Origin: Flagellimonas marinaquae
Lineage (GTDB): Bacteria; Bacteroidota; Bacteroidia; Flavobacteriales; Flavobacteriaceae
Length of the DNA: 64,000 nt
Reading direction: 5' to 3'
NCBI RefSeq assembly: GCF_003992675.1
Contig: NZ_RZMZ01000002.1
Span: forward strand, 188,501-252,500
In this document: piece by piece, positions 2,770-6,580 of the stretch
How positions within the stretch are numbered: the stretch's first letter is position 1
Layout of the letters: the number at the start of each line of letters is the position of its first letter
Program-made: the position numbers and the translations under genes
Notes under the pieces: generated by a model
Told to the model about the DNA's origin: nothing
Database searches by the model: none
What the model saw: the letters and a program-made list of their open reading frames with translations, nothing else

Positions 2770-2832
2770 CATCCGTTGACTGAAACCCCCCATCCGTCAA
2801 CTCAAAAGGGGCATCCGTCAATTGGGCATCTT
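2770..2832 (+). repeat. Three 21-bp direct repeats, locus 1
   Basis: Units start at 2770, 2791 and 2812, exactly 21 bp apart. The core is CATCCGT(T/C)(G/A)A(C/T)T; the middle unit begins CATCCGTCAACTCAAAAGG. A TAG-containing box (TAGACCTTC at 2850) starts 38 bp after the start of the last unit, and the next gene starts at 2887. The same three-unit arrangement recurs at 3325 and 3918. A 21-bp phase equals two helical turns, as for direct-repeat operators of LytTR-type regulators; the identity of the regulator is inference. Confidence 0.85.
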
Positions 2833-2886
2833 CGCCTAGCAACTTTTTTTAGACCTTCGGGATTCAATTGGTAATAGTTGAACCCT

Positions 2887-3312
2887 ATGTTGGACAAAAC
2901 ATCGGGTGCTCTGCACCTTGGCGAAGGCATCGAAATTGGGCCGCATATCGATTTTACGGCAACGGTAGAACTGCACTTGGGCAACAAGCCTGAGGTGATT
3001 GGGTTTGTGGATGCCGAAAATCAACAGGTGCACTTTAGAAATGTGAGGGTGGGACATTCCTTTTTCACCTTTCGGATGCGGTTTAGTTACAACCGGCTCT
3101 TGGTTTTGGAACTTTTGGTGAGTCCGCATCCCATCCCGATTGCGGGCGACTGGGATGACTGGAGCTTTGAAACCGAAATGAAACACTTGGAACAGTGCAA
3201 TGCTTGGTTACAGGAACAAGTAGGCAACGAGCGGGAGTTCGATTGGGGCTATATTTGGTCGGGCTACGATAGTTTGGGCGGTTATAGCAGTATTAAAATC
3301 AAGTATTATTAG
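2887..3312 (+). CDS. Hypothetical protein, first gene of the repeat-associated island
   Basis: About 141 residues; no family recognised. The frame opens with TTG at 2878 immediately after an in-frame TAG; ATG at 2887 (MLDKTSGALHLGEG) is the better start. The protein is soluble, without signal peptide or membrane segment. It is rich in Trp and acidic residues in its second half (GDWDDWSFETE, EFDWGYIWSGYDS) and looks like a small alpha/beta protein. GC content resembles the core genome, unlike the next two genes. It lies 54 bp downstream of the triple 21-bp repeat of locus 1 and is likely controlled by it. It could be an immunity or stress-type accessory protein, but nothing in the sequence proves a role. 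Confidence 0.6.
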   Translation: MLDKTSGALHLGEGIEIGPHIDFTATVELHLGNKPEVIGFVDAENQQVHFRNVRVGHSFFTFRMRFSYNRLLVLELLVSPHPIPIAGDWDDWSFETEMKHLEQCNAWLQEQVGNEREFDWGYIWSGYDSLGGYSSIKIKYY

Positions 3313-3323
3313 TAGTGAAAAAC

Positions 3324-3418
3324 GCATCCGTCAATTCAAATGGGGCATTGATCAACTCAGAAGGGGCATTCGTCAATTGGTGTGAAATTTCTACCATAAA
3401 AAAACTAGCTTCACTTAT
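3324..3418 (+). repeat. 95-bp direct repeat, copy A
   Basis: It matches 3917-4011 without gaps. Apart from a divergent stretch in the first repeat unit there are only a few substitutions. The element contains the three 21-bp units plus a shared tail (GTGTGAAATTTCTA, then CATAAAAAAACTAGCTTCAC). The tail holds a candidate promoter box TAGCTTCAC at 3406, 39 bp after the start of the third unit. Confidence 0.9.
3325..3387 (+). repeat. Three 21-bp direct repeats, locus 2
   Basis: Units start at 3325, 3346 and 3367, exactly 21 bp apart: CATCCGTCAATTCAAATGG, CATTGATCAACTCAGAAGG and CATTCGTCAATTGGTG. Same core and spacing as loci 1 and 3. Confidence 0.85.
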
Positions 3419-3421
3419 TAC

Positions 3422-3454
3422 ATGGAAGATATCGTTGAAACTATGTTTAAATAG
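3422..3454 (+). other. Ten-codon ORF directly behind the locus 2 promoter box
   Basis: ATG at 3422 reads MEDIVETMFK and stops at TAG 3452-3454. It begins 16 bp after the TAGCTTCAC box, so it would be the first translated frame of that transcript. It may be a leader peptide, or the stub of a gene lost from this cassette. Too short to judge coding potential. Confidence 0.25.
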
Positions 3455-3506
3455 ACGTTGTGCACCATTTTGGCCAATTAAAAACACGTCAAAAAATAAT
3501 TAAATA

Positions 3507-3800
3507 TTGAATAAAAAAACTGAACGATTTGAAAAAAGAAGTGAAAAGATTGGAACTTTTTGTGCTGTATTTTGCCTTGTTTGGCTAATTGACAATACTA
3601 CACCCCTAATAAGTTCTCCTTTTTCCTATAGTAGAATATTACAGAGTGAATGGCTTAAAAATATTGAGATATTATTAGCTCTTACTGGAATCATATTTGG
3701 CATGGAATTGCGATACGGAAAAATTAAGCCCTTGATAGGATTTCTAATATTCGCGATTATTTTGATAACCGGAATTGTATTAAGATTAATTTATTTCTAG
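3507..3800 (+). CDS. Small multi-pass membrane protein, AT-rich, function unknown
   Basis: 97 residues; no family recognised. The only start before the first membrane helix is TTG at 3507, because an in-frame TAA lies at 3501; weak starts are common in this AT-rich stretch. The N terminus is charged (MNKKTERFEKRSEK). Three hydrophobic segments follow at about 16-27, 50-65 and 75-95, and the C terminus is basic/aromatic (RLIYF). Base composition is much more AT-rich than neighbouring core genes, which suggests transfer. The gene sits between the two copies of the 95-bp repeat, 88 bp after copy A. It could be an orphan membrane protein, or an immunity- or toxin-like protein; no evidence decides. 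Confidence 0.55.
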   Translation: MNKKTERFEKRSEKIGTFCAVFCLVWLIDNTTPLISSPFSYSRILQSEWLKNIEILLALTGIIFGMELRYGKIKPLIGFLIFAIILITGIVLRLIYF

Positions 3801-3820
3801 AAAAACGAAAGCACAACAAA

Positions 3821-3846
3821 GAACTGAATTAAAAACAAGTCCTTTT
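3821..3846 (+). repeat. Short 3' element, copy A
   Basis: GAACTGAATTAAAAACAAG plus the following bases match 4638-4664 (GAACCGAGTTAAAAAACAAG) with a one-base gap and a few substitutions. Each copy lies about 20 bp behind the stop codon of an AT-rich gene, so both 5' and 3' flanks of these two genes are shared. Confidence 0.55.
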
Positions 3847-3916
3847 CCATAAATACACCTCCCAAAAGCACTCCATCTTCGAGCACATTTCGCTCTATTT
3901 TCAACCCCTGTTTTTT

Positions 3917-4011
3917 GCATCCGTTGATCCGAACAGGGCATTGATCAACCCAGAAGGGGCATTCGTCAATCGGTGTGAAATTTCTATCATAAAAAAACTA
4001 GCTTCACTTAT
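3917..4011 (+). repeat. 95-bp direct repeat, copy B
   Basis: Ungapped partner of 3324-3418, 593 bp downstream. It includes the same tail and TAGCTTCAC box (3999), again 39 bp after the start of the third 21-bp unit. It lies 37 bp before the ATG of the next gene. Confidence 0.9.
3918..3980 (+). repeat. Three 21-bp direct repeats, locus 3
   Basis: Units start at 3918, 3939 and 3960: CATCCGTTGATCCGAACAG, CATTGATCAACCCAGAAGG and CATTCGTCAATCGGTG. Period is exactly 21 bp, as in loci 1 and 2. Confidence 0.85.
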
Positions 4012-4048: not shown

Positions 4049-4618
4049 ATGAAACAAAAAGTAATCTTAACCCTATTCCTTTTATTAATGACATTTATAC
4101 AAGCTCAAAAGAATTATGGAACTCTGATTTTCAATGATGGGAGAAAACTAAATGGGTTAATAAAAATTAAAGGAAATGATATCATTTTCAAAAAATCAGA
4201 AAAATCTGAAAGAGAAAATTATAATTACGAAAATATTTCAGCCCTTACATTTTTAGATAAAGAAAATACAACTCAACGATTTGAATATATAAAATTAGAC
4301 CACAAGAATATCCCCAAATTATGTTATGTTGAAATAAATGACTTTCTTAAGTTATATTCAAATGTTAGTTCTTCATTTATTATGAATGGAATGGGTGGAA
4401 ATCTTAGAAGTACTTCAACTTTTCATATAAAAAGAGAAAATGAAGAGTTTGCAACCTATTATGTTGCTTTTGGATATATACCGAAAAATAGCTTTAAAAG
4501 CGTAGTATTGGAGTACTTTAAAGATTGTCAACACTTAATTAACAAACTTGAAAAGAAGGAATTTAAAAAGAAACATTATTTTGAGATAATAGAATACTAC
4601 AATAATAATTGCAGATAA
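4049..4618 (+). CDS. Exported hypothetical protein, AT-rich
   Basis: 189 residues; no family named. A clear signal peptide covers 1-19 (VILTLFLLLMTFIQAQ, cleavage before KNYG). The mature part starts with a beta-rich section (YGTLIFNDGRKLNGLIKIKGNDIIFKK) like the small-beta-barrel start of several flavobacterial secreted proteins. It ends in a lysine-rich helical tail with cysteines near 154 and 188. Composition is strongly AT-rich with A-ending codons, unlike the core genes at 2766 and 4738, which suggests a horizontally acquired gene. It follows copy B of the 95-bp element and is followed by the 3' element, so it appears to be a separate cassette with its own promoter. Likely periplasmic or surface-exposed. 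Confidence 0.7.
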   Translation: MKQKVILTLFLLLMTFIQAQKNYGTLIFNDGRKLNGLIKIKGNDIIFKKSEKSERENYNYENISALTFLDKENTTQRFEYIKLDHKNIPKLCYVEINDFLKLYSNVSSSFIMNGMGGNLRSTSTFHIKRENEEFATYYVAFGYIPKNSFKSVVLEYFKDCQHLINKLEKKEFKKKHYFEIIEYYNNNCR

Positions 4619-5674: not shown

Positions 5675-6580
5675 TTACAAAATTCGGTTCAGCACCACAT
5701 CTACATCAATCAACAAAATACTGAACACGCCCACCACAATAATCAACTTGATAATGTTGTGCAACCACACATAATGCTTCTTACCGTTAGCTTTCCACAG
5801 CAAGGCCAAAAATAGAATCAACAGCACTACACAGGCCGAAAAATAGAAGTACATATAGCCCACATCGAACGTATTGATCAAAAGCAGTGATGGTACCAAG
5901 GTCAGCACTATCAGAAAGGAGATAATGGATTTGGAAACCTTGGGCCCGTAGATAATGGGAATCGTCCTGTAATTCTGCGCCATGTCGCCCGCCATATTTT
6001 CGAGGTCCTTGATCATTTCCCGGGCCAAAATCAGTAAAAACAAGAAAAGGGCGTGCACAAAAATCACCGTTTGAAAGTTCTGATAGTACACAAAGACCAC
6101 AAAAAACGGGGCTATGGCCAAGGTAGAGGACACCAAATTGCCCACAAGAGGTATCCGTTTGAGCTTGTGCGAATAGATCCAAATCCCAAAAATATAGGCA
6201 GAAAAAAACAGTACCGCCTTGAAGGAGATGTAACTGGCCGCAAAAACAGCCATAAAGTTGAGTACAAAATAGGTGGATAGCTTAAACCGTTGGCTCACCA
6301 AGCGGTCCAACATACTTTTGGTGGGTTTATTGATCAGATCTTTTTCCGCATCGTAAAAATTATTGATGATGTACCCACTGGCAATGGTGAGGGCCGAAGC
6401 GGTAACGATAAGGAACAAATTTAGGTCGAGGACCACATCGCGCAACGGAATATCGGGCGCCAAAATGTAAATGGAAGCCAAGTATTGCGCCAAGGTAATG
6501 ACCAAGATGTTATAGCCACGAACCACGGAAAACAGACTCAACAGCTTAAAAAGCAGGAGTTTGTTTTTTCTACTAAGCAT
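5675..6580 (-). CDS. UbiA-type prenyltransferase (geranylgeranylglycerol-phosphate type)
   Basis: 301 residues with eight to nine hydrophobic helices. The first Asp motif is NNFYDAEKD (N74, D77, D81) and the second is REMIKDLENMAGD (D192, E194, D199); together these bind the Mg-prenyl diphosphate. The family joins a prenyl chain to an aromatic or glycerol-phosphate acceptor in the membrane. The flavobacterial homologues are usually named geranylgeranylglycerol-phosphate geranylgeranyltransferase, but the acceptor is not shown by the sequence. The gene begins 10 bp after the mevalonate kinase-like gene ends, which points to one operon making isoprenoid precursors and a prenylated product. The acceptor could instead be a quinone ring. 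Confidence 0.85.
   Translation of the reverse strand: MLSRKNKLLLFKLLSLFSVVRGYNILVITLAQYLASIYILAPDIPLRDVVLDLNLFLIVTASALTIASGYIINNFYDAEKDLINKPTKSMLDRLVSQRFKLSTYFVLNFMAVFAASYISFKAVLFFSAYIFGIWIYSHKLKRIPLVGNLVSSTLAIAPFFVVFVYYQNFQTVIFVHALFLFLLILAREMIKDLENMAGDMAQNYRTIPIIYGPKVSKSIISFLIVLTLVPSLLLINTFDVGYMYFYFSACVVLLILFLALLWKANGKKHYVWLHNIIKLIIVVGVFSILLIDVDVVLNRIL

Follow-up and report, generated by a model that had tools for sequence, protein, structure and literature searches.

Transcriptional activators of the AraC/XylS family recognize direct repeats with a period of 21 bp next to the −35 element, as at araI1-araI2 of araBAD and the XylS sites at Pm, and the arrays described here likewise consist of units repeated in one direction every 21 bp or so, close to the −35 region. 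Two helix-turn-helix motifs and autoregulation are further points of likeness between these activators and the system proposed below; the differences are that the present arrays have up to three units where theirs have two, that dozens of promoters are involved here, and that the candidate regulator has two hydrophobic segments and not a sugar-binding arm. Regulators of the LytTR family are the other close parallel. According to the available text of PMC6193735, their sites are 9-bp direct repeats with a 12-bp spacer (11–13 bp), usually ~10 bp before the −35 element, a geometry that the arrays share, and LytTR systems are also alike in autoregulation via the regulator’s own array; however, the repeats listed in that text are ACCACTTAT-like, whereas the unit here is TCCGTCAAT with a conserved GGGG box between units, and no LytTR gene was found with an array in front of it (below). 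The relevant promoter element is the Flavobacterium psychrophilum sigma-A box, given in the available part of PMC9723704 as TAnnTTTG at −12 to −5; the array promoters resemble it in that TAnnTT follows the array at a constant distance, but differ in that the last letters are variable.

The window (the whole 64,000-nucleotide stretch that was analysed, G000:C2:188501-252500) is part of G000, a 3.42-Mb Flavobacteriaceae genome, and carries the following features:

2770..2823, + strand: array 1, units at 2770, 2791 and 2812 (period 21 bp), from the sequence
2850..2857, + strand: putative −7 box belonging to array 1, TAGACCTT, at +38 from the last unit and of the variant form TAnnnTT, placed by the fixed distance (box type as in the available part of PMC9723704)
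2887..3312, + strand: ORF of 141 aa behind array 1, ATG at 2887, from the ORF list
3325..3378, + strand: array 2, units at 3325, 3346 and 3367, from the sequence
3346..3417, + strand: promoter cassette, copied at 3939-4010 (69/72 identical)
3406..3413, + strand: putative −7 box of array 2, TAGCTTCA, +39 from the last unit, from the sequence and the fixed distance
3507..3800, + strand: ORF of 97 aa behind array 2, with hydrophobic segments and an uncertain TTG start, from the ORF list
3918..3971, + strand: array 3, units at 3918, 3939 and 3960, the most degenerate of the three, from the sequence
3939..4010, + strand: cassette copy, of 3346-3417
3999..4006, + strand: putative −7 box of array 3, TAGCTTCA, +39 from the last unit, from the sequence and the fixed distance
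4049..4618, + strand: ORF of 189 aa behind array 3, ATG at 4049, signal-peptide-like start, from the ORF list

A sequence-only reading of this DNA had described nine units in three sets of three with an exact 21-bp period, a TAG-containing box 38–39 bp after the start of each last unit and a small gene behind each set, and all of these are present as it described them, with the TAG box beginning at 2850, 3406 and 3999. Measured against CATYCGTCAAYT, the units have 2, 0 and 0 mismatches in array 1 (in the order listed above) and 0, 2 and 0 in array 2; array 3 is called the most degenerate because its mismatches number 3, 3 and 1. Phased triples (≤4 mismatches per unit and ≤9 in total) occur three times in the window versus none in every one of 100 dinucleotide-preserving shuffles, while lone CATYCGTCAAYT units with ≤2 mismatches are not above chance there (28 versus 22.2 expected, with at least 28 in 14 of the 100 shuffles). 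The start of the 97-aa ORF is uncertain because no ATG fits its frame. This ORF has no family match, and the 141-aa and 189-aa ORFs have none over the cut-off (Pfam/NCBIfam for the former). All three window genes are orphan-like, with five homologs for each of the two that were searched: one homolog of the 141-aa protein is named Flagellimonas marinaquae, and the five for the 189-aa protein include the window protein itself.

The genome-wide search for the repeats that the same reading had proposed gave 42 matches in G000 to the pair pattern CATYCGTCAAYT-N9-CATYCGTCAAYT with ≤3 mismatches, and none to the reversed pattern; merging overlapping matches and adding the third window array makes 34 arrays, behind which 33 downstream ORFs were selected. 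Ungapped alignment of 31 of the 34 arrays gives the consensus CATCCGTCAAwTCArAAGGGG-CATCCGTCAAwTCAAAAGGGG-CATCCGTCAATTGG, in which a GGG-type box lies ahead of unit 3 in 27/31 arrays, of unit 2 in 15/31 and of unit 1 in 1/31. The first unit has ≤3 mismatches in just 23 of the 31, so about a quarter of the arrays are two-unit arrays; CATCCGTCAGAT is a common variant of the first unit in G000, and it is used for upstream units at many promoters, that of the candidate regulator P0002 (below) included, in G000, G117 and Muricauda sp. ARW1Y1. One three-mismatch match, L049 (G000:C17:54426-54458), has no GGGG box and a poor likeness and is probably due to chance.

The distances between units within 90 bp of one another are 21 bp (41 pairs) and 42 bp (18 pairs) only, and a TAnnTT sequence starts at +39 or +40 from the last-unit start in 21 of the 31 arrays, while any other offset is seen at most three times. 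By the box rule in the available part of PMC9723704, this places the units near −94, −73 and −52, so that they end shortly before −33. A position weight matrix finds 145 sites scoring above 10, in loci that were chosen because they bear arrays, and its best score on reversed sequence is −6.3. An overlap of ≥27 bp with an ORF of ≥150 aa is seen for only two of the 31 arrays, and the other 29 are clear of such ORFs. The scatter over random positions, inside genes or without fixed phase and distance, which the sequence-only reading had named as evidence against itself, is thus not what the genome displays. Recurrence at 21 and 42 bp only, together with a −7 box at a fixed distance, indicates that the arrays are very probably promoter operators, and the constancy of this distance across many promoters with no relation to one another suggests an activator in contact with RNA polymerase. 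The proposal made in the sequence-only reading, an operator/activator array for a single regulator, gains support from the genome-wide recurrence, the fixed phase and the fixed −7 box distance.

Strict matches are confined to Flagellimonas/Muricauda. Of 100 genomes that each represent one genus of the family, G000 alone has the pair pattern at ≤2 mismatches; within the genus, 47 of 60 genomes have it at ≤3 mismatches, between 1 and 49 times each, and the control had one match, in G104. Across 84,980 species (one genome each, in a search that may omit records near the window’s genome) the exact pattern occurs in 36 stretches, and every one of their titles names Muricauda, Allomuricauda or Flagellimonas. 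A looser triple pattern matches in 30 of the 100 genera, nine times in G000 and one to three times in every other, but we regard the matches outside the genus as background, in that the reversed control matches several genomes and many of the matches share codon-like sequence, although a few could be real arrays. The genomes of the genus, with 0 to 49 pattern matches, form a set in which growth or loss of the regulon could be followed.

The earlier description of the genes behind the arrays as unrelated accessory genes has to be amended, as many of the targets are predicted to be exported or surface proteins, even if the three genes of the window are orphan-like. By a home-made heuristic and with downstream ORFs chosen mechanically, a signal-peptide-like start is present in 21 of the 33 ORFs behind G000 arrays versus 17 of 46 window genes (p = 0.024), and in 76 of 111 proteins behind arrays in relatives, a set thinned solely by identical first 60 residues, in which some of our genome handles and named records are possibly the same genome. 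Domains behind the G000 arrays include collagen-like, cadherin, TIG, Big and DUF285 domains, outer-membrane barrels and Cu-binding MopE; a magnesium-chelatase-like ATPase, a pyridine-nucleotide oxidoreductase, a thioredoxin-fold protein, an FAD monooxygenase-like protein and an AraC protein also occur, and many of the proteins have no family match. No convincing gene follows the array at C13:13228, and those at C15:314242 and C15:392725 are 424 and 303 bp from their genes. In the relatives (n = 111) the counts are TIG 12, collagen 10, Big_2 7, cadherin 6, DUF285 5 and HTH_18 5, among the 25 of 52 families listed. A literature search for a genus-wide surface-protein regulon found no description of one, and a search with the string CATCCGTCAA returned nothing on bacterial promoters among the matches listed.

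HTH_18, the AraC type, is the sole transcription-factor family among those 25 families. Its five members behind arrays fall into three groups: P0001 (L077 and L114), P0002 (L084 and L090) and a third (L079). P0002 (G000:C2:130125-130754) has 210 aa, with two N-terminal hydrophobic segments followed by an AraC domain that matches PF12833 (E = 5e-20) and PF00165 (E = 3.5e-15), both above cut-offs. Among 35 relatives, 32 have at least two hydrophobic segments, and in both DNA-reading helices most residues do not vary. Of the 60 genomes of the genus, 30 have a full-length-like ortholog (E ≤ 1e-50) (a tally of 59/60 at E ≤ 1e-25 includes paralogs), and 29 of these 30 orthologs have an array in their own promoter, the exception being L227. 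In a scan of 50 loci these promoter arrays score no lower than 17.8 versus a reversed-sequence maximum of 8.1, a comparison that is partly circular in that the 33-bp matrix includes P0002 sites; a matrix built from G000 only places its best site in the promoter at 28 of the 30 loci. Three genomes (G110, G120 and G146) have the P0002 promoter array and no other strict match, which is most simply explained if P0002 reads the array.

P0002 and the arrays also have the same range, since at E ≤ 1e-40 P0002 is found in 1 of 100 genera, as are the arrays (1/100); among the best 120 database matches, the full-length relatives named to genus come from Muricauda, Allomuricauda or Flagellimonas by name, while Pricia is the name on a longer relative that matches more weakly. 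Within the genus the median number of pattern matches is 6.5 in genomes with P0002 versus 1.0 in those without it (n = 30 each, p = 0.0014, uncorrected for phylogeny and with P0002’s own array able to add to a genome’s count). Nonetheless, the candidate is not present wherever arrays are: 20 of the 30 genomes that lack P0002 have at least one match and ten have at least four (G155 17, G106 16, G111 11, G130 10, G151 10, G133 9, G121 8, G150 6, G101 5 and G126 4), so P0002 cannot be the sole reader, and it could be a target and not a reader.

Other AraC-type proteins were considered too. P0001 (156–182 aa) corresponds for the most part to the DNA-binding portion of a longer gene; at its locus (L124-L133, L361-L367) there is either a full-length gene of 558–577 aa or a short form of 157–182 aa that keeps the DNA-binding part only, and the ORF adjoining the longer gene resembles alanine dehydrogenase. 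Of eight loci with the short or broken gene, six have an array in front of it, as do two of seven with the full-length gene; an array also precedes the gene in L114, the named record that was the source of the P0001 query. In three genomes without P0002 (G106, G111 and G130) an array accompanies a P0001-like gene, but P0001 was rejected as a universal regulator, being absent from G000 at E ≤ 1e-20 and having no array at five of the seven full-length loci. The third kind, the 149-aa L079 protein, is from G138, a genome without P0002; its relatives in G155, G151 and G121 were rejected as readers, having no array upstream. Longer P0002 relatives (361–377 aa) in six P0002-lacking genomes have similar helices, but they have no array in front at any of 10 loci and occur in array-free genomes too, and were likewise set aside. 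Of the 17 HTH_18 genes in G000 only one is immediately preceded by an array, and in G155, G151, G133 and G121 no array precedes any AraC gene among the loci examined.

Taken as a whole, the best explanation, to which we give about an even chance, is that the arrays are activator operators read by one regulator, likely of AraC type. In this mechanism two or three sites spaced by 21 bp, two helical turns, would face the same side of the DNA between about −94 and −41, immediately ahead of a flavobacterial promoter of the standard kind; a single regulator bound there would recruit RNA polymerase to at least 34 promoters in G000, many of them for surface or exported proteins, and P0002 would act on its own promoter as well. 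The sequence of the arrays, their phase, placement and constant distance to the −7 box, their restriction to the genus and the kinds of gene behind them are observed directly, whereas that a protein binds the arrays, that its binding activates transcription, and which protein it is are all things that we infer. Assignment of the regulator to the AraC type is somewhat favored by the genes that carry arrays, and P0002 itself is the best candidate, one that we name tentatively and do not regard as established. The master regulator could instead be another AraC protein or a member of another family, with P0001, P0002 and the L079 gene as second-tier targets. The array-rich G155, G151, G133 and G121, which have neither P0002 nor P0001, and the fact that the P0001 locus bears an array in some species only, speak for such an arrangement, but persistence of the P0002 array in genomes without another strict array does not, and we consider it possible but rather doubtful.

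A LytTR-family response regulator would bind the units by 9-bp contacts separated by a 12-bp spacer and activate the same promoters; a link to this family had been suggested by the sequence-only reading. The geometry agrees with this, in that 21 equals 9 + 12 and the position before −35 is that of the sites in the available text of PMC6193735, and G000 has eight LytTR genes, whose conservation is wide enough for array-bearing genomes to have them too. The advice to look for a LytTR or other regulator gene that carries the array led elsewhere, however: no array precedes a LytTR gene at any of 38 loci (8/8 of those in G000 and 30/83 of those in G155, G151, G133 and G121), while AraC-type genes are repeatedly found behind arrays (5/111). 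Nor does the presence of any of the eight G000 genes follow the arrays among seven genomes, as seven of them have close relatives in all seven genomes tested, four array-free ones among these, and the eighth (L007) occurs in G121, G151 and G155 and also in the array-free G119 and G124. The sole observation favoring the LytTR side is L320 (G155:C4:300700-304700; 1137-2196), where two arrays lie upstream of a 226-aa LytTR response-regulator ORF, the last unit ~480 bp before it. A shortened unrelated ORF, resembling one behind arrays in L118, lies between them and runs into the LytTR ORF, which is missing the beginning of its receiver domain; the arrangement therefore seems to have come about by chance, through a deletion or an error in the assembly. 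An AraC-type regulator is thus more likely than one of LytTR type, which we consider improbable. Least probable is a reading of the arrays as REP- or transposon-like dispersed repeats with no regulatory role. Many near-identical copies within one genus, and window arrays 2 and 3 as copies of one cassette, are as expected of such elements, but those would lie in scattered places, in both orientations to genes and with no fixed phase, whereas the arrays have a single orientation, a fixed −7 box distance and a strict 21-bp phase, lie outside ORFs of ≥150 aa in 29 of 31 cases and are conserved at orthologous promoters. Among the 38 LytTR loci, L308 (G121:C47, ~6282-6560) has a stand-alone LytTR protein of ~110 aa before a SusC-like gene, and the LytTR gene is back to back with a collagen-like protein gene whose array faces away from it.

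How the operators spread is suggested by the window itself. The 69 of 72 bp shared by 3346-3417 and 3939-4010 run from unit 2 to beyond the −7 box, and over the next 53 bp identity falls to 20/53; by this comparison a single promoter cassette is present in two copies, at arrays 2 and 3 of the window, with two unrelated orphan genes behind them. Identity followed by divergence suggests, at least in this case, spread by copying of the whole promoter, so that copies of a single cassette appear to serve two unrelated orphan genes. More speculatively, and with no great confidence, a membrane-tethered AraC-type regulator born in the genus may read a two- or threefold operator that spreads as a ready-made cassette, copies of which, landing before new orphan genes and surface adhesin-like genes, would enrol them at once in one surface-remodelling regulon. 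The arrays would in any case provide a sharp operator code for a genus-wide surface-protein regulon, together with a candidate regulator. Two neighborhoods may be mentioned in addition. At L170 (G000:C16:276009-276884) a gene for a collagen-like lipoprotein, which bears an array, and a 240-aa AraC-type gene are arranged divergently. The P0002 gene adjoins a TonB-dependent-receptor gene in G000, and by motif such a gene follows P0002 in 29 of the 30 loci L201-L230, with plug and CarbopepD_reg domains confirmed in the two genes tested, a neighborhood in which a link between sensing and uptake is possible.
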